From Bacteroidaceae bacterium (GTDB lineage Bacteria; Bacteroidota; Bacteroidia; Bacteroidales; Bacteroidaceae): 64,000 bases of DNA. This document shows positions 53,780 through 63,448 of the stretch, one piece after another. Each line of letters starts with the position of its first letter. Position 1 is the stretch's first letter. Under the pieces are notes generated by a model, which worked only from the letters and a program-made list of their open reading frames with translations, had not been told where the DNA came from and did not search any database. The stretch is taken from positions 1-64,000 of the forward strand of contig JAFROT010000003.1 in the NCBI GenBank assembly GCA_017429525.1, given 5' to 3'. A program made the position numbers and the translations under genes.

Positions 53780-54362
53780 TCAGCTGTCCTTTTCAATCTC
53801 TATTATCCTCGGTTTATTGCATGCCTCGTAATAGTTATCATGCAGCGATGAACCGTTTGAGAAGGTGATACCATCTAAAGTTACCTCGCCATAGCACTCA
53901 TGGGCATGGCCGAACAAGTGATACTTGGGCTTAACTTCAAACACTCGGTTCCTCAATGGGGCATTTCCCCAATGAATGCCAACAGTCTCGTCAAGAATCA
54001 TGACTGGAGGTTCATGCGTGACCAGCACGTCAACATTGTCGGGGATGAGCGATTCTCGATGGTTATACGCTAGCCCGAAGAACCGAATCCCATCAATCTC
54101 ACAACCACGGTCTTGCAGAAAATGGATATTCTCAGGCAAGTCCTCAATATCCTCTGCATCCCAGAGGCACAAATCATGATTACCCGTCACAAATATCTTA
54201 TGGGCATAAGGCAGCATGATAAACCAAGTTGAGGAAATCGAGCACCTCCTCTTCGCGCCCCATATCGGCGAAGTCGCCACAATGAACGATGACATCACCT
54301 GCCGGCAGATCCTTCAGCCGCTGATGACGATTATGTGTGTCGGAAATCTGAATTATTCGCAT
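53780..54362 (-). pseudogene. Metallophosphoesterase gene broken by a frameshift
   Basis: A calcineurin-like phosphoesterase of about 190 residues is encoded in two frames. From the ATG at 54362 the product reads MRIIQISDTHNRHQRLKDLP, then IVHCGDFADMGREEEVLDFLN, and in this frame stops soon after as LVYHAALCP. One extra base at about 54225-54228 separates it from the frame that continues WFIMLPYAHKIFVTGNHDL, with the remaining motifs THEPP and GHAHECYG. Together the halves supply the metal-site motifs DxH, GD, GNHD and GHxH. Either a recent pseudogene or a sequencing error. It lies 84 nt after the formylglutamate-amidohydrolase-like gene. A truncated second copy of its first 20 codons is at 55168-55233. 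Confidence 0.85.
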
Positions 54363-54446
54363 TTACAAACTCTTCAACATCAAGAACTATGCCCTAAAGA
54401 ATACCTTAAGTGGTTTAGAATGAGTGATTTGCTACAACTTGTTTTT

Positions 54447-55148
54447 TCACGCAGCCAACTCCGACAGCAGCCGTTCCATCAGTTCACGTACACTCCTGCG
54501 ATAGGCTGGATTGTGCTTCAGCCGCAACGTTCCGTCTTCCATATAAGCCTTCTTATTGACTTCGAGCATCATAGATTGATAAACGAATGGGCAGTCGGGA
54601 GTTTCTGAATTGCTATACGGGTCGTTGATACCCACTTTGTACCCTGCATCTTCAAAGAGGTTCACGGCAAGTTCTATGGTCCGCTTTTCAGGTTTGGACC
54701 AGTCCTCGTTATATCCGATGCAGATATCAACGTCGCTCAGTTCGCTGGGGAATGAGTGGCAATCAAGAAGAAGAGCACCTTCACACAGGTTGCGCCTCAA
54801 TCTCTGCTGATGACTCTGCCAGAGATTCAGCAATAGCCTCTCCGAATCTTGAGGTATGACACGAGAGTATCCATCAAACTGTTTGTAAAGGATACCCTGA
54901 CCCTCAGATTCCAAGGGGTCGTCCCACAAGCGCTCAGCATCAACGATGAAACGCGAGTACGGGAATCTAACCGTCCGTATATTCTCTTTCCTGTAGCCAT
55001 GGAAGAGATAATCCGTGTGCCAGTCCGTCCACCTTAGGACAACCTCATTGATGAACCGTTCATCAATGTCCCAAAAGCTCATCCGCTCGTCATAAAGCCC
55101 CTCTATAGAAGCATGAGGCTCATTTAATACTATTCTATTGTATTGCAT
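54447..55148 (-). CDS. N-formylglutamate amidohydrolase family protein
   Basis: 233 residues. Family features: an early EPHAS, FPYSRFIVDAERLWDDP, EGALLLDCHSFPSEL with the metal-site DCHS, DICIGYNEDWSKPE and NDPYSNSETP. The enzyme family cleaves N-formyl-L-glutamate to formate and glutamate, but members next to phosphoesterases outside histidine degradation may have other amide substrates. No hut genes are nearby. A degenerate copy of its last 20 codons lies upstream at 55248-55316, evidence of a past tandem duplication of this gene with the phosphoesterase. Confidence 0.85.
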   Translation of the reverse strand: MQYNRIVLNEPHASIEGLYDERMSFWDIDERFINEVVLRWTDWHTDYLFHGYRKENIRTVRFPYSRFIVDAERLWDDPLESEGQGILYKQFDGYSRVIPQDSERLLLNLWQSHQQRLRRNLCEGALLLDCHSFPSELSDVDICIGYNEDWSKPEKRTIELAVNLFEDAGYKVGINDPYSNSETPDCPFVYQSMMLEVNKKAYMEDGTLRLKHNPAYRRSVRELMERLLSELAA

Positions 55149-55167: not shown

Positions 55168-55233
55168 TCACTCCGGCAGATCCTTCAGCCGCTGATAACT
55201 ATTATGTGTATCGGAAATCTGTACTATTTTCAT
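55168..55233 (-). pseudogene. Fossil of a second metallophosphoesterase copy (first 21 codons)
   Basis: ATG at 55233 reads MKIVQISDTHNSYQRLKDLPE and stops at 55168-55170. It matches the start of the gene at 54362 (MRIIQISDTHNRHQRLKDLP) both in protein and over about 60 nt of DNA, then the similarity ends. It lies just upstream of the intact amidohydrolase-like gene. Confidence 0.8.
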
Positions 55234-55247
55234 TGTTTTGTTTGAGT

Positions 55248-55316
55248 TTACGCAGTCAACTCAGACAGCAGCCGTTCCATCAGTTCACGAATACTCCTGC
55301 GATTCCCAATGCTCAT
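55248..55316 (-). pseudogene. Fossil of a second amidohydrolase copy (last ~20 codons)
   Basis: Reads IGNRRSIRELMERLLSELTA then TAA at 55248-55250, against YRRSVRELMERLLSELAA at the end of the intact gene (54447). About 54 nt are nearly identical. Its upstream edge meets the 3' end of the AT-rich unknown gene (55313). With the next remnant it preserves the junction between the two genes of a deleted duplicate. Confidence 0.8.
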
Positions 55317-56275
55317 ATTCCATAATTATCGTGATTCTTCCTTAATATGAACATACCCATCTTTACTCCGAGTTGTATCAATCGATAACAATAATTCCTA
55401 GCAGCTTGTCCATCATATCCAAGGTGAGCATAATACAAACTTGTGGAAGTCCAATATGATTGACTATTTTGAATATAATCATATTCTCCATTTGTAATAT
55501 CTGAGATTTGAAAAACATACAACTTTCCTTCAAAATCTATTACTTTCCCTTTTGGGAACTCTTTTTGACATAAAGAGAACGCTTTCTTTTCATCAAATAA
55601 TCCATTAGTCATTACACAACTATCACCAGCGTATCTTTGATTGATGTTGATGAATAGTCTGTATTTAATTGTGTTAACATCTGCATGATATATTTTAGTC
55701 AACAATGGCGTAAGATACTCTAATTCTTCTATCAAACAAACCTCTACGAGATTAATATTCAAATCAGAAGTTAGTATTCTTTTTATACTATGTACAAAGA
55801 CCTTTCTTGAGAGACTGGTACCTTCTGTTTTTGGGGGAGGCAAATAATAATCAGTTTTTAAACCTCTTTCTACTGAATTTCGCATAATTTCAACAGCTTG
55901 TTCTTCAGAACAGAAAAAAACCCGATTAAGCTTACGTATTATTTGACCTGTTTTTGCTTCAATAACATATGGATACTCGCACAAATCTGAAATAAAAGCA
56001 GAAACAAGAATTATGTTTTCCATTTGCTCTCCAATCTTAACCTCTTCCAGCAAATAAGCATATCCTTTCTTTGGGTCATATTCATTATTGGTTTGACAAT
56101 AGGGCTTGTCTTTATACATTTTAGCGATATCAACCGTTAGCAAATAATCAACTCCATCTAACATAGTTTCATTTGAATCCGGTATATGAAGGACCTTCTG
56201 AAACACCATCACAACAGTATGAGATTCTTTTGTGCGAATTCTCCCCTCATGGATATTAACTATTTGTGCTTTCAT
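55313..56275 (-). CDS. Unknown 320-residue protein, last gene of the accessory operon
   Basis: I do not recognise a family. The gene is AT-rich, like its upstream neighbours. The product is soluble with mixed alpha/beta patterns: VVMVFQKVLHIPDSNETMLD, ENIILVSAFISDLCEYPYVI, KTGQIIRKLNRVFFCSEEQA, RLFININQRYAGDSC, GKVIDFEGKLYVFQISDI and SYWTSTSLYYAHLGYDG. No signal peptide, membrane segment or catalytic motif is evident. It starts 38 nt after the DUF1848 gene and is probably co-transcribed. The stop overlaps by a few bases the fossil amidohydrolase tail, so the island's edge lies here. Confidence 0.75.
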   Translation of the reverse strand: MKAQIVNIHEGRIRTKESHTVVMVFQKVLHIPDSNETMLDGVDYLLTVDIAKMYKDKPYCQTNNEYDPKKGYAYLLEEVKIGEQMENIILVSAFISDLCEYPYVIEAKTGQIIRKLNRVFFCSEEQAVEIMRNSVERGLKTDYYLPPPKTEGTSLSRKVFVHSIKRILTSDLNINLVEVCLIEELEYLTPLLTKIYHADVNTIKYRLFININQRYAGDSCVMTNGLFDEKKAFSLCQKEFPKGKVIDFEGKLYVFQISDITNGEYDYIQNSQSYWTSTSLYYAHLGYDGQAARNYCYRLIQLGVKMGMFILRKNHDNYGI

Positions 56276-56313
56276 CTTATTATTTCTGCAATTTAAATGT
56301 TCTTATTTTTTCT

Positions 56314-57363
56314 CTATCCTATGATGCTTTCACTCTCATCATTATGCTTGTCCTTATTTTTAAGAACAGCCTCCTTGCTTGTGTTTGCATAGCAATAAAC
56401 GCAGAAATGTCGACAAGTATTGTACATACCTATGTCTTTACTAACCATACATCCGCAAATCTTCCTCTGCCCAGCGTCTTTGACGTTTTTAGGCTTTTGT
56501 GGAATGGGGGGTATCTCGCCAAACATATCTTTCTCAGGCCATTTCAAGGTGTGAAGATAATAAACAAGTTCCTTGTCATCTGCAAAGATGCGTTTCATCA
56601 GTTCGCCATCAATGCAACGATTATGCTCAATGCCATACGCCTCCAGGTCAATGTCTTCCGCACATGTGGCCATCTCAATATTCCATCCCTCGCCATGCCA
56701 TGCTTCACGAATTTTCTTTAATCCTTCCACAATTTCTCTCCGTTGAGCATGATTTGCTTCAGCATTTTCAACATCTTCTTTCGTGAAGAACATCGTTTCT
56801 TTTACTAGATTATTCTGGACTTTTCTATATGCTTTTACATCAACGAAACTAAACACTAACTTATCAGTATATCCTTTCAGTTTATTTCCAACATTCCAAA
56901 TTCTTGTGAGCAGTTCTCTTGGCCCGATATTAGGTGTAATGATTAAAGGATCAAATCGCCAAATCACCTTCTCTTTACCAATGAGGCTTGACAGTTTCTT
57001 GAAAGTCTCTACACGTTCTTCAACAGAGGATACATTTGGCTCAAAACCTTCCTTTACATAGTCGTTCAGTGTTACTTGGAAGTAGTAGTGGATGCCTCTT
57101 TCGTCCAGTTCATGTAGATACGGCAGTATTGGCTCTGGATTCTTTGTCCAAAACACCACAACCTTGCAGTTCTTGAACGAAATATACATTTTTTGCTGGT
57201 TGAACGGATTGTACCAAGCACAATACCCTTTATCCAAGCGGTTAAAAAACCACTTGGCATAAAAGGCTGGGATGTCTGTTGAACGACTTGCTGATATTAT
57301 GACTGGTGCTGTTGCCTCAACCTCTTTACCCTGTTGATTAACTATTTTATATTTCTCATTCAT
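56314..57363 (-). CDS. DUF1848 family protein with C-terminal cysteine cluster
   Basis: 349 residues. It starts with the family pattern APVIISASRSTDIPAFYAKWFFNRL, CAWYNPFNQQKMYISF and VVFWTKNPEPILPYLHELDE, then IHYYFQVTLNDYV and KVIWRFDPLIITPNI, an apparent TIM-barrel related to radical-SAM folds. Cysteines 303, 305, 317, 321 and 324 (ICGC, then CRHFCVYCYA) probably bind an Fe-S cluster, unusually at the C-terminus. DUF1848 has no firmly known function. It lies 15 nt after the coiled-coil gene and 38 nt before the last gene of the operon. Confidence 0.85.
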   Translation of the reverse strand: MNEKYKIVNQQGKEVEATAPVIISASRSTDIPAFYAKWFFNRLDKGYCAWYNPFNQQKMYISFKNCKVVVFWTKNPEPILPYLHELDERGIHYYFQVTLNDYVKEGFEPNVSSVEERVETFKKLSSLIGKEKVIWRFDPLIITPNIGPRELLTRIWNVGNKLKGYTDKLVFSFVDVKAYRKVQNNLVKETMFFTKEDVENAEANHAQRREIVEGLKKIREAWHGEGWNIEMATCAEDIDLEAYGIEHNRCIDGELMKRIFADDKELVYYLHTLKWPEKDMFGEIPPIPQKPKNVKDAGQRKICGCMVSKDIGMYNTCRHFCVYCYANTSKEAVLKNKDKHNDESESIIG

Positions 57364-57378
57364 TGTAATAGTAGCTTG

Positions 57379-59103
57379 CTAATTTAACTTTAATGATATT
57401 TCTTCCAATTTGTTATCAATCAATGAATTTATATCATCATTTTGATATAATACCTTAGTAAATGTTTTAGGCATATCTGCAAAACCAATCCAAGCTCCCC
57501 AAAGCATAAAAGCATAAGCCTTATTTGAAAACTTCTTTATCATCATATATCTTTCAATCTGATCGAAGCCTAATGGTTTTACAAAGAAAGACATTATTGA
57601 CTGCAAGACTGGCATATCCTCTGGAATGTTAAATGAATCTGCACGCTGATTTTTATATGACCAATATTCACGTAATGTGTTCAAAATCTTTTGGCCAGAA
57701 TCTTCTTTAGATAATGGCATGGACTTAAACAATTTTGCGGACTCTTCCAAAATAAGAAGAACAGAATGCTCTGACAATAGCTTAGCGGTAGTTCTATTAA
57801 GAATACATTTCAACAAGATATTAAAATAGCATAATTCAGAATCATTCTGATTACTTGACAAATATAAAGAATCTGAGAATGCCACATGTGAAAGGTCTAC
57901 TATTCCTCCGTTTGTTAAACTTGCGGCATTTTTAATCAAATCATTAAGAATATCACTTATTCTAGTAAATATGGCTGATAAAATGTTATCATATTTATTT
58001 GAGTCATCATTCAGTTCTTGCTCAACCTGAAAGGCCCTATTTTTTAACTGAATGTATTCTGCATTTCCTTTCTCAAATTCTTCTATTATATTTTTAAGTT
58101 GTTGTTTACGTTCATATTCTTCCGTATCCTTTTTAAAATACAGCCTCGATTTCCCTACCCTTTCGCCATTTGCCTTTTCCAAGGCTTTGATACTATCAAG
58201 CTCCTTTCTAACCTCTACTATATTATATGTTTTTTCAATTCGAGAAATACAATATTCAATATCGGTCTTTTCTTGAAGCAAATCATCTTTGTTCTGGTTA
58301 TTATTATATAATTGTTTTTTCTGTTCAGAGCGCAACCTGGCCAAATTGATTACTTCTTTATATTGATCAAGAAGGACATCAAAAGAATGGCTCATCCCTA
58401 CAGTCTTGAAATATAGCTCTTTGCTGCCCCTAATTCTTTCGCTCAAATCAGAATTGTCATTGAATACATCACTCATCATTATTTGAGTATTCATGCCACC
58501 GAACGAATTCTTGAGATCTCTCAAATTGTTTTGTAAGTGAAGAATCGTATCATCTGATGACGTATATTGTCCTCTTGTATAGCCAATTATGGCACCTTTA
58601 ATTTTGTTGTATTTGTTATCAAAATCGATATAGGATTCTTCTTCAAAAGAAAGAGAATCTTCTAATTTTGAAATAGTTGGACGAACTATAATCTTTTTAC
58701 CCTTAATGTAAAAATCAGAAATATACTTCTCTAAACATTTGATTTCAAGAAGAATTTTGGATTCGGATATTAATGAATCCATAAGGTCAGCTGTACCGAA
58801 TCTAAATTTTACATATTCTTTCTGGTAATAAATTGTTTTGGGATATGTAAATGCCTTTTTCATTCCTGGGACAGGGCACAGAAGTTTCAGATCAATCAGT
58901 CTTTCATCAATAATTAGGGAAAAGTCGCCACCTAAATCTTCAAGAGAAAGGATCAGATAATTTGCTTTCTCTTTTTCACCGCTTAGGTATCGACTTAAAT
59001 AGTTTCCATATTTTCGTTTTCCATAGAAGGAGAATGGTGATATACTTTCCGTCACGAAGGATTCTAGAAGATTCCATGAACTGATTTCTATATAATAATG
59101 CAT
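57379..59103 (-). CDS. Unknown 574-residue coiled-coil protein paired with the SF1 helicase
   Basis: 574 residues from the ATG at 59103, 7 nt after the helicase stop; a TTG at 59127 would extend it and overlap the helicase. I recognise no family. N-terminal part (1-215): MHYYIEISSWNLLESFVTE, LLEIKCLEKYISDFYIKGK, KGAIIGYTRGQY. Residues about 225-375 are strongly coiled coil (ARLRSEQKKQLYNNNQNKDD, YERKQQLKNIIEEFEKGNAE, LKNRAFQVEQELNDDSNKYD). The C-terminal part is globular (LCYFNILLKCILNRTTAKLL, YAFMLWGAWIGFADMPKTF). No membrane segment or nuclease motif is obvious. Tight coupling to a helicase suggests that the two form one complex; the role is open. Confidence 0.75.
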   Translation of the reverse strand: MHYYIEISSWNLLESFVTESISPFSFYGKRKYGNYLSRYLSGEKEKANYLILSLEDLGGDFSLIIDERLIDLKLLCPVPGMKKAFTYPKTIYYQKEYVKFRFGTADLMDSLISESKILLEIKCLEKYISDFYIKGKKIIVRPTISKLEDSLSFEEESYIDFDNKYNKIKGAIIGYTRGQYTSSDDTILHLQNNLRDLKNSFGGMNTQIMMSDVFNDNSDLSERIRGSKELYFKTVGMSHSFDVLLDQYKEVINLARLRSEQKKQLYNNNQNKDDLLQEKTDIEYCISRIEKTYNIVEVRKELDSIKALEKANGERVGKSRLYFKKDTEEYERKQQLKNIIEEFEKGNAEYIQLKNRAFQVEQELNDDSNKYDNILSAIFTRISDILNDLIKNAASLTNGGIVDLSHVAFSDSLYLSSNQNDSELCYFNILLKCILNRTTAKLLSEHSVLLILEESAKLFKSMPLSKEDSGQKILNTLREYWSYKNQRADSFNIPEDMPVLQSIMSFFVKPLGFDQIERYMMIKKFSNKAYAFMLWGAWIGFADMPKTFTKVLYQNDDINSLIDNKLEEISLKLN

Positions 59104-59110
59104 AATGCTT

Positions 59111-60460
59111 TTATTTAAATTCGACAATGTCCTGATTGTTTATATTTCCCAAATATGACGTTCTAACTCCTGAATATGTAATATATAGGCTATGAGAAGC
59201 ACGGGTACATGCCACAAAAAAATCATATCGCTTACCTACATGACCTTCATTAGCAAATGGGACAAAGACATGTTCAAATTCAGAGCCTTTTGCCGCATAA
59301 TAGTCTAATATGCATGGCAAGTCATTATTTGAAAAGTCCAGCGTATTTATTGTATAATAAGGGACTTCTTTACCCGTTCTATAGTGTGTCTGAACTTCAG
59401 AGATTCCATTATCTGCCATTAGTTTTACCACCTCTTGAACATCTGAATTATTTGGAACAAGAATTGCGACATCGTCCAAAGTTTCATTCTTTATTCTATT
59501 GGCTATCCATTTTATTTCATCAAATCTTGTTTGGCACTTCTTTATAATTGGTTTAGGAAATGTTGGATAATCACTATTACCTTCATTCTTCATATTGTTA
59601 GTAAGCAAATCTATTTCGGGTTGTGCTATCTTCTGCGCAACTTTCGCTATAGCTTTTGGAAGACGATAGTTGTATCTCAAGTTGTAGAATTTGAAATCGG
59701 AAAATAATTTTTGTATTTCAGAAATGGGACTCCCGAAAGGATACATTTTTTGATTGGAATCTCCAAACAATGACAAACTCTTGCCAACTTGTGGCATATA
59801 TGCGTTTTTTATATATAAATCTTTGAAGTCCTGAACTTCATCAATAATAAGATAATCTATCGTTGATTCGCAAGGTTTGTATAAGGTTCCACCTGAAACT
59901 AAACAATATGATGGATTTGTTACAGAAAAATCATTATCCAGATCTATTTCTTTAAACCATGACGTTCTTCTCTCCCATGTTTTATAAAAATTTTCATGTA
60001 CCCAATCTGCAAAATCAATTCCAAAGTGTTCCTTTACTTTGTCTTTGGGAGAATCTTTTTCTTTAAAAACTAATTTAAATTTCCTTATGCTTTGACCATT
60101 AACAAGATATATTATAGAAGAATCATCAATTACAGGTTTATCAAGATCATAATGTCCTTTACAATAAACATCTCCAATTAAATCAAAACCTCGTTCCTTC
60201 CATGCCCAATCATATGCGATTCGCTCATTGTCTAAGCCTAACTCCTTCATTCCATATGAAATCATCCTTCTAAGTGCGATAGTCATAATGACGATAGCAT
60301 ATGTACCTTTGCCTTTTGCCTGTAAAGCTCTATGTATAGCAAGGTTGGTTTTGCCACTACCTGCAACACCTTGGACAATAATACTTTTGTCAATGCTCTC
60401 AATGATAACTTCACGTTGGATGTCATCAAGATTTCTAATAAACCAATTTTGTAATCTCAT
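59111..60460 (-). CDS. Compact SF1 (UvrD/Rep-like) helicase or ATPase
   Basis: 449 residues. SF1 motifs: Walker A GVAGSGKT at 31-38, Walker B IIDEVQDF at 205-212, motif III LFGDSNQKMYPF at 231-242, motif IV region LRYNYRLP at 261-268, motif V-like AAKGSEFEHVFVP at 389-401 and motif VI VACTRASHSLYI at 416-427. It is much shorter than UvrD (about 720), with reduced 1B and 2B insertions, so it may be a DNA-stimulated ATPase rather than a processive helicase. AT-rich. It follows the methyltransferase by 42 nt and precedes the 574-aa gene by 7 nt. Confidence 0.88.
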   Translation of the reverse strand: MRLQNWFIRNLDDIQREVIIESIDKSIIVQGVAGSGKTNLAIHRALQAKGKGTYAIVIMTIALRRMISYGMKELGLDNERIAYDWAWKERGFDLIGDVYCKGHYDLDKPVIDDSSIIYLVNGQSIRKFKLVFKEKDSPKDKVKEHFGIDFADWVHENFYKTWERRTSWFKEIDLDNDFSVTNPSYCLVSGGTLYKPCESTIDYLIIDEVQDFKDLYIKNAYMPQVGKSLSLFGDSNQKMYPFGSPISEIQKLFSDFKFYNLRYNYRLPKAIAKVAQKIAQPEIDLLTNNMKNEGNSDYPTFPKPIIKKCQTRFDEIKWIANRIKNETLDDVAILVPNNSDVQEVVKLMADNGISEVQTHYRTGKEVPYYTINTLDFSNNDLPCILDYYAAKGSEFEHVFVPFANEGHVGKRYDFFVACTRASHSLYITYSGVRTSYLGNINNQDIVEFK

Positions 60461-60502
60461 ATTCGTTTACATTTGTCAATAATAGAATCGTCATAGGTGA
60501 CT

Positions 60503-61324
60503 TTATTCGATAGTAATACGACTCTTATTCCTAATCATTCTCCATGCTACTTTACTTATATCGTTAGGAAAGCGAGAATGCGAGATGGAATAAGACTGAT
60601 TATAGCCCTTGTTTTGGTCAACTATATGACAATTAGTTGTTGCCAGACCTCTATCCAACATCTTAGGAAGCCATTCTTTTGACGTGTTATTATATGTTGT
60701 AACGTCAACAAGCAACATGATTCCACTATCTGTCAACTTATGAAGAAGGAATTTGGCTACATGTTCGTAAGCATTATGTTGTTCAAATTGTTGTTTAGTT
60801 ACAAATTCACATATAGCTTTGAATGTTATAATTACGTCAAACTTCCTTTTCAAAACTTTGTTTAGTATACTTAAGTCATAAAAATCATCAATGTGGAGCT
60901 GAGTTGAATGGTTTTCAATTTTAATCGTAAGTTTCTTTTTTAATTCAGCTAGGACAATGTCATATAGTTGTAAAGCATAGTCATTACCATCTAAAGCCAC
61001 AACTCTAACTTCTCTTACAGTTGGACAATACTCGGCCAAGACGGTTAATAATCCTATTATTTCACCGCCAGTTCCACATCCAAAATCAAATACAGACAAA
61101 TCTTCTTTATTTGCGAATTGCTCAGAATGACTTCTGAAAAAATCAGAAAATATGCAATATGATTCTGCATAACTACGAGGAAAGTAAGTGCCTAAATAAT
61201 TGAGAACATCGTTTTTGTCCCAATCGATAACAGTCATATCAGAGTTTGATCTGCAATATTTTGCCCCTAACTCATCAAAGATTAGATGGTCTAACCACTG
61301 TGGCAATGTTACTCTATCATGCAT
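60503..61324 (-). CDS. Class I SAM-dependent methyltransferase
   Basis: 273 residues. Motif I VFDFGCGTGGEIIGL at about 78-92 binds SAM; VRVVALDGNDYALQLYD is motif II and the acidic loop; FDVIITFKAICEFV is motif IV-like and GIMLLVDVTTYN is motif VI. No DNA-methylase signature (NPPY, DPPF or PCQ) is present, so it is more likely a small-molecule, RNA or protein methyltransferase. It lies 22 nt after the 250-aa gene and 42 nt before the helicase. The substrate is unknown. Confidence 0.85.
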   Translation of the reverse strand: MHDRVTLPQWLDHLIFDELGAKYCRSNSDMTVIDWDKNDVLNYLGTYFPRSYAESYCIFSDFFRSHSEQFANKEDLSVFDFGCGTGGEIIGLLTVLAEYCPTVREVRVVALDGNDYALQLYDIVLAELKKKLTIKIENHSTQLHIDDFYDLSILNKVLKRKFDVIITFKAICEFVTKQQFEQHNAYEHVAKFLLHKLTDSGIMLLVDVTTYNNTSKEWLPKMLDRGLATTNCHIVDQNKGYNQSYSISHSRFPNDISKVAWRMIRNKSRITIE

Positions 61325-61346
61325 ATAGTCGTTACAATGTTAGTGT

Positions 61347-62099
61347 TTATGCTGCAATCTTTGATTTCTCATTTTTTCCAATGTGGAATGTCTCACCTAT
61401 ATAAGTCAGTATTTTCTCCATTGTCATACATACTTGACCATCCCACATACAGTCAATCTCTGGATAGTAATACAACATCTGATATTCATTGCAATGCCAA
61501 GATAATTGTTCTCCGTTAGGCAAGTAAATGTATACAATATAGGATGCATTCTTCCCTGTGTTGGAACTGATACCGTATCTCCAATCAGTCTCTTTCAATA
61601 ATTCTGCAAGCCGCTCAAGAAGAATAGTCTTTCTTTCATAAATAACCGTCTTATGGTTATGTAGTTTTTTGGCAGAAAGATTAGCAAATTCTGTTTCCAG
61701 CAATAGCAAGACAATTTTTGCCTCAATTTTAGAGCTGTGCTTTACCTGTCTTTTCATTTGGGACAGAACCTTACGTAAGCCAATACCCAAAGCATCGGTT
61801 CTGAACTTTTCTAACTTTTCAAGGTTCTGTTTATTTTGATCACAACTCTTTTCTTGTTTTACAGTGTGGGCTTCAATAGCTTGTTGTAATTTCTTCCTAA
61901 TTATGGGATTATGAGTCGCCCTTTCAAGTCTAGTCATCTCAAAAACAGTCCACCCAAAACACGAAAAAGCATCAGCTTCTTTTAGGTTCTTTTGGTAACA
62001 TTCCATCACTTTGCTTGCAGAAACGTTCTTTGCAAGATATCCATTCCGAAGCTTCTTGCCAACTCCTTGTAGGATGTCTTCGTTAATGATTGTCTCCAT
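61347..62099 (-). CDS. Unknown 250-residue protein, first gene of the accessory operon
   Basis: 250 residues from the ATG at 62099; an in-frame upstream start at 62132 overlaps the promoter box. The middle is helical and charged (RKKLQQAIEAHTVKQEKSCD, RKVLSQMKRQVKHSSKIEAK, LLLETEFANLSAKKLHNHKT). The C-terminus is more mixed (YIVYIYLPNGEQLSWHCNEY, TMEKILTYIGETFHIGK). No membrane segment and no known family recognised. It leads the packed run of six genes ending at 55313 and follows a -7 promoter box at 62130. Confidence 0.7.
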   Translation of the reverse strand: METIINEDILQGVGKKLRNGYLAKNVSASKVMECYQKNLKEADAFSCFGWTVFEMTRLERATHNPIIRKKLQQAIEAHTVKQEKSCDQNKQNLEKLEKFRTDALGIGLRKVLSQMKRQVKHSSKIEAKIVLLLLETEFANLSAKKLHNHKTVIYERKTILLERLAELLKETDWRYGISSNTGKNASYIVYIYLPNGEQLSWHCNEYQMLYYYPEIDCMWDGQVCMTMEKILTYIGETFHIGKNEKSKIAA

Positions 62100-62129
62100 A
62101 ATGTTTTTTTCGTTTGTTGTTTCTCGCTG

Positions 62130-62137
62130 CAAAGATA
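62130..62137 (-). promoter_or_regulatory. -7 promoter box of the accessory operon
   Basis: On the minus strand TATCTTTG followed by C, 30 nt before the ATG at 62099. All following minus-strand genes down to 55313 are spaced by 7-42 nt and no other good box was noticed between them. Confidence 0.7.
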
Positions 62138-62216
62138 AAGGGAGAATTTGGAACGAGCAAGATTATTTTATTTCACTGTATCAATTATGTCTCTTAATGT
62201 ATGAATAAAGATAAAA

Positions 62217-63071
62217 CTATTCCCAGACAATATAGTTCTCTTGAACATCTTCCTGATGTTCAATTTCATTTGTTATACGGTTACCATTCTCATCAACATA
62301 AAGTGGGAGGGAAATACTACCGACAAGAGAGATAGCTTCTTGAACGCCCATATCCAAAAGGGCCTGGGTAAAATCGTGCATGGATTCCCGTTCGACAGTC
62401 TCTATAATAGAAACTCTTTCCTTGTAATAACATAAAGCTCTTCGCACGGCTTTTCCCTTAGGAAACGATTCACCCAGTTTTCCATCATGAATTAAAGAGA
62501 ACTGCCGGAAGAAATAGCCTTCTTGGTCCACAGCTCGTTCAAATAATGCAGTCTCTTGGCTCATTCCCATTGTAATCGTATCGCCAATGATGGCACAGAA
62601 TCCGTATTTCGGATGCCCCCGTGAAAGAAGTTCTCCTTTATAGACGAAAGCTCCAGCTATTTTTCCATTGTCGGCACGATAATCGGCAGCCTGAGCTGCA
62701 AGAATGATGTTGGAATCATTATCGGGCAGCTGACCTACAAGCAATTCAGCATGTCCACCAACAGGTGTGTATATTTGCAAAGCTATATCGTTAACAGAAT
62801 CACATGAAAATATGACATAAGCCTTCGTCTCTGTGGATGACTGATATGAAACACTCTGAGTAGTATCTGCTACAGATTCTACAGAGTAGATACTTGATGT
62901 GTTGTTTGGGCGATTAATTGCCCAAAACCCAAATATAGCCGCAATCAATGCAAATGCTATTATAAGCCATTGCCACTTAGGCCATTTGGAGGTTGGAGTC
63001 TCATGTTTAGACTCTGTTGCGCCCACGACACGGATCTCGTTATCTTCTATATCAAATAGTTCCTTAGCCAT
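62217..63071 (-). CDS. Membrane-anchored NAGPA (phosphodiester glycosidase)-like protein
   Basis: 284 residues. A cytosolic head of about 30 residues, one membrane segment (WQWLIIAFALIAAIFGFWAI), then an extracytoplasmic domain. IILAAQAADYRADNGKIAGAF, KGELLSRGHPKYGFCAII, FPKGKAVRRALCYYKERVSI and DFTQALLDMGVQEAISLVGS follow the order of NAGPA/phosphodiester-glycosidase domains, where the usual text is PRTALG ... GA.DA.NLDGG. Here the LDGG end reads LVGS, so activity is doubtful. Follows the LytTR gene by 17 nt and so is probably its target or partner. Confidence 0.65.
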   Translation of the reverse strand: MAKELFDIEDNEIRVVGATESKHETPTSKWPKWQWLIIAFALIAAIFGFWAINRPNNTSSIYSVESVADTTQSVSYQSSTETKAYVIFSCDSVNDIALQIYTPVGGHAELLVGQLPDNDSNIILAAQAADYRADNGKIAGAFVYKGELLSRGHPKYGFCAIIGDTITMGMSQETALFERAVDQEGYFFRQFSLIHDGKLGESFPKGKAVRRALCYYKERVSIIETVERESMHDFTQALLDMGVQEAISLVGSISLPLYVDENGNRITNEIEHQEDVQENYIVWE

Positions 63072-63088
63072 TGTTCAATAGTTCTTCT

Positions 63089-63448
63089 TTATTTACCTTC
63101 GATAAGGTCTTTAAGTTTTTTCAATGATTCGTGAGAAACCTTCAGGGTTTCATGCCGATGCCCATTCGGCTCGCGCAATAACAACACTTGACGGTTTAGA
63201 TTAATATAATAGATGTAATTGAGATTGATGATGAGGCTTCGACCGATGCGAACAAAAGTCACGGCTTCCTCACCCAGTTGCTCACCAATCATACGTTCCA
63301 ACTGACCCAACTGGAAAAGTACGACGCGTTTTTCCTCGCCTACAATGTAAAGCGTGGAATAATTGCCATCCGCTTCAATACTGATGATGTCTTCGGCATG
63401 GAGTCGAATAAGCTCTGCAGTATTGCATATGATGAGTTGTCGTTTCAT
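63089..63448 (-). CDS. Stand-alone LytTR-type DNA-binding regulator
   Basis: 119 residues, only the LytTR domain: IRLHAEDIISIEADGNYSTLYI, VVLFQLGQLERMIGEQLG, FVRIGRSLIINLNYIYYINL, LKVSHESLKKLKDLI. There is no receiver domain, so its activity is set by another protein, possibly the membrane protein encoded 17 nt downstream. LytTR domains bind paired direct repeats; none was identified with certainty. The ATG at 63448 is 5 nt after the promoter box, so the mRNA is probably leaderless. Confidence 0.9.
   Translation of the reverse strand: MKRQLIICNTAELIRLHAEDIISIEADGNYSTLYIVGEEKRVVLFQLGQLERMIGEQLGEEAVTFVRIGRSLIINLNYIYYINLNRQVLLLREPNGHRHETLKVSHESLKKLKDLIEGK

Follow-up and report, generated by a model that had tools for sequence, protein, structure and literature searches.

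A conserved four-gene block of methyltransferase, SF1 helicase, partner protein and DUF1848 in Bacteroidales: a candidate anti-phage operon

Introduction

What is the role of the AT-rich group of six genes that lies towards the end of a 64,000-nucleotide stretch of a Bacteroidaceae genome (assembly GCA_017429525.1, contig JAFROT010000003.1, positions 1 to 64,000; hereafter the window), and do all six belong together? A first-pass annotation, made from the letters of the window, described six closely spaced minus-strand genes, AT-rich against GC-richer surroundings, and proposed that they work as a unit. A check of the open reading frames (ORFs) reproduced the layout exactly, with intergenic gaps of 22, 42, 7, 15 and 38 nucleotides (nt; the gene of 574 amino acids (aa) being started at ATG 59103), and the difference in composition likewise holds, the GC fraction of 55313-62132 being 0.341 against 0.54 nearby and 0.48-0.60 in 94 windows of the same size from 1-53500. 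We find that four of the six genes form a conserved unit, and we lean towards reading it as a candidate anti-phage operon, in which a fast-evolving core of helicase and partner is coupled to a modification pair made up of a methyltransferase and a radical S-adenosylmethionine (SAM) enzyme, DUF1848. The four core genes are:

60503..61324, minus strand: class I SAM methyltransferase, 273 aa, with YFPRS and GxGTGG motifs and no [DNS]PP[YFW]
59111..60460, minus strand: compact superfamily 1 (SF1; UvrD/HelD/GajB-like) helicase, 449 aa, with Walker A and DExQDF present
57379..59103, minus strand: partner, 574 aa, with an N-domain remotely like Pfam 2CompART, a coiled coil predicted by eye and a conserved C-terminal region
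56314..57363, minus strand: DUF1848, 349 aa, with a C-terminal CX3CX2C (C317, C321, C324); Pfam E 3.9e-93

Occurrence and gene order of the block

A search with the 574-aa protein against 200 relatives found it adjoining a helicase in genomes G175 and G141, and an alignment of three proteins of this type, searched against 393 genomes of the same order, added more distant forms of the partner in G344, G386, G209 and G225, the last three of which have all four core genes in one place. The partner occurs in 9 of these 393 genomes, its own genome counted and some being weak partial matches only, and the methyltransferase is rare, with 4 of 395 same-phylum genomes, again including its own. A scan of 84,980 species genomes in which the methyltransferase was the only query yielded 86 relatives, from which 80 loci were kept; together with loci L113 and L114, also found via the methyltransferase, these make up a set of 82, in which presence of the methyltransferase is by construction and presence of the other three families is not.

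All four families are found in 59 of the 82 loci, 14 more have methyltransferase, helicase and partner, and the exact order methyltransferase-helicase-partner-DUF1848 occurs in 53, the median gaps along it being 4, 3 and -8 nt. The first-pass annotation had staked its proposal on helicase and 574-aa gene lying side by side in other genomes, and they do, in 72 counted pairs (median gap 3 nt). Moreover, gene order is retained although methyltransferase identity to the window drops to about 30%. Some of the 82 loci duplicate or nearly duplicate one another (L103/L102, L105/L104 and L086/L059), L071 and L044 are contigs of L025 and L027, and L109 showed no module. By record title the hosts are mostly Bacteroidales and their relatives, including Bacteroides xylanisolvens XB1A, with single hosts in Desulfovibrio and, as metagenome-assembled genomes, in Helicobacteraceae, Chloroherpeton and Flavobacteriaceae.

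Several loci weigh against treating the four genes as one system. The partner is present without DUF1848 in 15 loci of L033-L112; in 7 of these the sequence stops at most 1.3 kb past the partner, and the other 8 have at least 2.8 kb of sequence there without DUF1848, 7 of them being methyltransferase-helicase-partner loci (two near-duplicates) and the eighth L065, in which the partner alone is labelled. Additionally, a helicase-partner pair stands without methyltransferase or DUF1848 nearby in L006, L007 and L024. DUF1848 and methyltransferase occur without the pair in L113.

Two further arrangements were noted. Genome G386 carries a second helicase-partner-DUF1848 set, without a methyltransferase, after apparent type II restriction-modification genes recognised by eye (L028:3422-11760), and in L006 (112-10499) a helicase-partner island with genes of 246 and 228 aa is flanked by two copies of ilvB/ilvN-like genes, also recognised by eye.

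The outer two genes of the window behave differently from the core:

61347..62099, minus strand: accessory gene, 250 aa from ATG 62099 (261 aa from TTG 62132), no Pfam family
55313..56275, minus strand: accessory gene, 320 aa, no Pfam family above cut-off (ORF and Pfam scan)

Their PADLOC matches are weak (2TM-TIR for the first gene, E 1.3e-4; Csx26 for the last, E 0.0031). Apart from itself, the first gene has a single homologue among 150 relatives, located in G063 on 18 kb of sequence that lacks module genes, and none among the ORFs of 88 loci; for the last gene only itself was found among the 150 relatives, and L051 has a partial homologue some 6 kb away from its module. Since neither is found with the module elsewhere, the conserved unit is one of four genes, not six, and in the window the outer two look like cargo. 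As linkage kept between genomes, the unit proposed in the first-pass annotation is thus supported for four genes and unsupported for the 261-aa and 320-aa genes, and although their shared strand, gaps of 22 and 38 nt and equally low GC would suit a functional unit of six, their absence from modules elsewhere makes such a unit extremely unlikely.

Co-variation and rates of change

Co-variation was tested on 54 loci with four full-length genes, with L086, L103, L105 and L109 left out, and with 999 permutations. The distance matrices of helicase and partner correlate at 0.87, above all 999 permutations, and those of methyltransferase and partner (0.51) and of methyltransferase and helicase (0.44) also exceed every permutation. 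Mean distances over the same loci are 0.59 for the helicase, 0.60 for the methyltransferase, 0.75 for the partner and 0.34 for DUF1848. By these measures, helicase and partner diverge quickly and in step with each other.

DUF1848 weighs against the coupling of all four parts, since it correlates with the methyltransferase at 0.13 (a value reached by 51 of 999 permutations), with the helicase at 0.04 (reached by 219) and with the partner at 0.06 (reached by 118). Between the window and 15 hand-picked relatives, DUF1848 proteins are 65-90% identical while four-fold sites agree at 0.22-0.51, and this combination of high protein identity and low four-fold agreement indicates that DUF1848 is held by strong purifying selection. 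On the same contrast, recent swapping was rejected as the sole cause of the high identity. The weak co-variation of DUF1848 would then reflect either exchange between operons or a protein too constrained to show it.

The individual proteins

The domain names given in the first-pass annotation (methyltransferase, compact SF1 helicase and DUF1848) hold, the first of them weakly, as class I, and the second as SF1/UvrD-like. The methyltransferase matches class I families below Pfam cut-offs only, a profile search of the PDB gave five weak partial matches (E 0.038-0.097), and motif IV of DNA amino-methyltransferases, [DNS]PP[YFW], was found in none of 83 methyltransferases. In some loci it is fused to a nuclease: NERD (PF08378, above cut-off) is joined to its N-terminal side in L048, L083 and L096, and PIN_4 (PF13638, above cut-off) to its C-terminus in L078. 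Among the ORFs of 88 loci, a profile of the NERD region found 9 proteins, all module methyltransferases, and one of the PIN region found 4 methyltransferases (two near-duplicates) along with one weaker match in another protein. The window operon itself has no nuclease family above Pfam cut-off. The methyltransferase also resembles the N-terminus of the PADLOC model RT_UG35 (E 4e-9). The possibility that RT_UG35 is a fused methyltransferase-reverse transcriptase (RT) form of the module was rejected, as the listed matches lie at model positions of at least 308, in the RT part, and not in the methyltransferase-like N-terminus.

The helicase, about 340-450 aa long in most loci, is above the Pfam cut-offs of Viral_helicase1, UvrD_C and UvrD-helicase, matches HelD, PcrA, UvrD and GajB in the PDB profile search, and scores against the PADLOC models RTasHel (E 6.9e-17) and GajB (best E 9e-16).

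For DUF1848 the prediction is a radical-SAM enzyme with a circularly permuted barrel. The CX3CX2C cluster motif is present in all 64 DUF1848 proteins of at least 300 aa, its predicted fold is a radical-SAM barrel, and for this superfamily Pfam Radical_SAM matches the window copy at E 0.05, below cut-off. It shares its predicted fold and CX3CX2C with spore photoproduct lyase (SPL) and PA0069-type radical-SAM proteins, and differs from them in that its cluster motif sits at the C-terminus, consistent with circular permutation; against the PA0069 model of NCBIfam, the segment with the cluster scores E 3.9e-4, far below the model's cut-off. The PADLOC model RTasDUF1848 matches at E 3.9e-42, and a PDB profile search returned nothing up to E 1. 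DUF1848 is found in 22 of 149 same-order genomes, and because most of the 23 copies there sit elsewhere without any module gene, it also has roles outside the module. By eye, DUF1848 adjoins methyltransferase-like genes in L161 and L165, the former with weak Pfam matches below cut-off and the latter with none to a methyltransferase. In L177 (3973-8544), DUF1848 is followed by a DUF1016-like gene (by eye) and a 780-aa protein, the helicase part of which matches the NERD+UvrD model C3a187 (E 6e-34) and the N-terminus of which appears methyltransferase-like by eye.

The partner has no Pfam family above cut-off, and its PDB profile search gave three matches at E 0.1-0.77. A pointer to its nature comes from loci in which a helicase stands with a 2CompART protein. 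In L164 (genome G184) DUF1848 and an SF1 helicase occur with a 591-aa protein carrying Pfam 2CompART (E 3e-25), and in L114 a helicase and the module's methyltransferase occur with a 2CompART protein of 624 aa (E 2.9e-6, narrowly passing the cut-off). A search for 2CompART in 149 same-class genomes found it in three, giving L185-L187, each of which has an SF1 helicase, a 2CompART protein, a gene of about 490 aa and an AlkB-family gene (by PDB match for L185 alone, by eye for L186 and L187). The conserved four-gene set at L185:5419-10873, L186:2812-7898 and L187:4806-10113 looks like a sister system. Taken as a set, the helicases of L164, L114 and L185-L187 align to the module helicases with an hhalign probability of 100.

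The N-domains of partner and 2CompART score 25.4, against maxima of 21.2 in 100 column shuffles and 20.3 among 23 unrelated families, and the C-terminal parts reach 34.3, with 22.1 as the highest of 58 shuffles (in two tests of this series, two of 60 shuffles lacked a score). When 572 other proteins are ranked by the partner N-domain profile, two 2CompART proteins that are close relatives of each other take first and second place (14.3 and 13.5 bits, the next at 5.7), and one of these is collinear with domain positions 5-178. Furthermore, 86 partners are separated from 567 other proteins with an area under the curve of 0.80 by the 2CompART N-profile and 0.68 by the full profile.

A number of results weigh against this relationship. 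The hhalign probabilities are 9% for the N-terminal parts, 17% for the C-terminal parts and 4.4% at full length, and the global mode gave no meaningful alignment of partner with 2CompART. The partner N-domain scores 25.2 against the reversed C-part of 2CompART, about as high as the N-N score, and the non-matching N-C pairing, at 21.4, is above its own shuffles. Three other 2CompART proteins rank 357th or worse of 572 under the N-profile, two of them without a reported score, the full-length partner profile places all 2CompART proteins at 216-455 of 572, and 2CompART (PF22546) is not among the best 25 of the 77 Pfam families matched by 50 partners. Weighing both sides, we regard the link as weak and take the partner N-domain, from profile comparison, as a possible to probable but unproven divergent relative of the 2CompART ADP-ribosyltransferase domain. 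Some partners also appear to carry an additional domain: a 708-aa form (L026:8112-10238) has an apparent topoisomerase-type C4 zinc ribbon by eye, and Zn_ribbon_Top1 is matched at 4.3e-10 in one of 50 other aligned partners.

Promoter, island boundary and neighbouring genes

Two further features flank the six genes:

62130..62160, minus strand: putative Bacteroidales promoter, a pattern match to a loose motif (-33 TTG, 20 nt, -7 TATCTTTG)
55173..55303, no strand assigned: remnant of a metallophosphatase / N-formylglutamate amidohydrolase gene pair, 89-91% like 54302-54363 and 54446-54502

The TTG and TATCTTTG pair is present at 62160-62130, where the first-pass annotation had placed a promoter box, and fits a Bacteroidales-type consensus; the motif is loose, matching 5 minus-strand and 8 plus-strand sites across the whole window, and the box stays putative. 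As the -7 box contains the TTG start at 62132, the first gene more likely begins at ATG 62099. The repeat at 55173-55303, on the 3' side of the block, reads as the remnant of a duplicated gene pair cut by the island and abutting its end. Upstream of the operon, beyond two other genes, lies a YhcG/DUF1016 PDDEXK nuclease with a WYL regulator (L010:1905-4208, contig positions 63905-66208, partly outside the window), and a WYL regulator also precedes the helicase in L007.

The list of nearest neighbours across loci comprises 132 proteins. Alignment covered 130 of them, leaving out the downstream neighbours of L049 and L082, and the family scan covered 126, leaving out also the upstream neighbours of L033-L035 and the downstream neighbour of L096. 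Pfam families listed among the 126 are headed by HATPase_c_4 (11) and SLFN_AlbA_2 (9) and also include AAA_14 (3), integrase (3), YhcG (2), Mob_Pre (2), WYL (2) and BrxL (1, beside L081), together with ordinary metabolic genes, and the PADLOC matches listed are PDC-S01 (3) and PDC-S02 (2). AbiH adjoins L108, and RTs adjoin the helicase-partner pair in L007 and, in L008, the partner end. In L008 (922-6044), an RT of 575 aa, HisKin-conflict and iREC/receiver proteins directly follow a partner gene that is truncated where the contig ends. The same two genes, one for a protein of 281-295 aa and one for a retron-like RT (436/480 aa, with RVT_1 assigned by Pfam in L007 and by eye in L051), lie close to the helicase-partner pair or module at L007 (10305-12495) and L051 (4134-6426).

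More distant genes served for comparison (205 in all, 148 sampled and 130 of these aligned), and they too comprise defence genes, among the matches listed JetC, PglX, PDC-M16, PDC-S05 and PDC-S01; consequently, our claim is of a setting with defence genes and not of a measured enrichment. Searches of mobile elements gave no vehicle of transfer: plasmid records (window and L105 forms) and phage records (window form) contained no partner, and viral contigs no methyltransferase. Three 2CompART proteins were likewise not found in plasmid records. The four-gene block, carried by gut bacteria, is probably moving horizontally.

Possible functions

Under the anti-phage reading that we favour by a modest degree, the helicase-partner pair would bind and scan invading or damaged nucleic acid as sensor and effector; it is cast as the recognition/effector core because its two members diverge fastest, do so together, and are sometimes present without the other two genes. 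Methyltransferase and radical-SAM enzyme would write a mark on nucleic acid that separates self from non-self or licenses the core, and a NERD or PIN nuclease, where present, would do the cutting. L113 likewise pairs a methyltransferase with DUF1848, and L161 and L165 may do so, as judged by eye. Regarding the target, SPL and NERD suggest DNA, whereas PIN and the ALKBH8-like enzyme of the sister system suggest RNA. A more specific version, which we offer tentatively as a possibility, is modification-coupled immunity of a new class: the permuted SPL-like radical-SAM enzyme and the non-canonical methyltransferase would write a mark on DNA, or on tRNA as the ALKBH8-like sister enzyme hints, and the SF1 helicase and ADP-ribosyltransferase-fold partner would act where it is lacking or mis-carried, possibly by ADP-ribosylation, with NERD and PIN as interchangeable cutters.

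Alternative hypotheses may explain the same four genes. In a DNA/RNA repair or stress operon, the SPL-like enzyme would reverse a lesion, the helicase open the nucleic acid, and methyltransferase and partner assist; however, the patchy distribution (methyltransferase in 4 of 395 and partner in 9 of 393 genomes), the fast divergence of helicase and partner, the NERD/PIN fusions and the defence or mobility neighbours suit immunity better than housekeeping, and we consider repair unlikely. The pairs that stand without the other two genes nearby (L006, L007, L024), the converse case of L113, and a DUF1848 without clear co-variation with the rest would fit a composite, in which helicase and partner are a self-sufficient defence and a separable methyltransferase/DUF1848 module merely travels along. 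This is quite unlikely, given that the methyltransferase co-varies with helicase (0.44) and partner (0.51), that the median gaps flanking the helicase-partner pair are 4 and -8 nt, and that order is kept down to about 30% methyltransferase identity. Finally, the pairing of a radical-SAM enzyme with a SAM-methyltransferase, and the amino-methyltransferase motif missing in 83 of 83 methyltransferases, could indicate a small-molecule pathway making a modified nucleotide or peptide, antiviral as with viperin, yet helicase and nuclease fusions indicate nucleic acid and render this very unlikely.

If the anti-phage reading is correct, the block adds a four-gene system outside the PADLOC models, radical-SAM chemistry of a permuted type enters defence, and DUF1848, a Pfam family of unassigned function, gains a testable setting. 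Given a slowly changing DUF1848 and fast-diverging partners, deletion of single genes could directly test the role of each part.

Comparison with known systems

The first-pass annotation recognised no defence system in the combination, Gabija included, and this agrees with our comparison: no PADLOC system covers the gene set, and none is complete among the proteins scanned. The term "DUF1848" was not found in the literature searched, from which subscription papers are mostly absent, nor was a description of the gene set. The module helicase is UvrD-like, as in Gabija, and matches the GajB models, but GajA was not found among the eight window proteins of 55313-63448, and membership of Gabija was rejected. 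Models from DRT/UG RT systems (RTasDUF1848, RTasHel and the RT_UG35 N-terminus) match three of the four core proteins; membership was again rejected, as RVT models match none of the six proteins.

Restriction-modification, BREX and DISARM likewise combine a methyltransferase with a helicase, and some module members add a NERD or PIN nuclease; restriction-modification genes (by eye) lie beside L026 and L028, and BrxL beside L081. The module differs from these systems, the helicases of which belong to superfamily 2, in lacking the amino-methyltransferase motif, in using an SF1 helicase and in having an extra radical-SAM component. With low certainty, the closest known arrangement is that of helicase and 2CompART, a curated Pfam domain for which we found no paper. 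Loci L164, L114 and L185-L187 likewise have a compact SF1 helicase followed by a 2CompART-domain protein, L164 also with DUF1848 and L114 also with a methyltransferase, as in the module, whereas L185-L187 differ in that a gene of about 490 aa and an AlkB-family gene replace methyltransferase and DUF1848.

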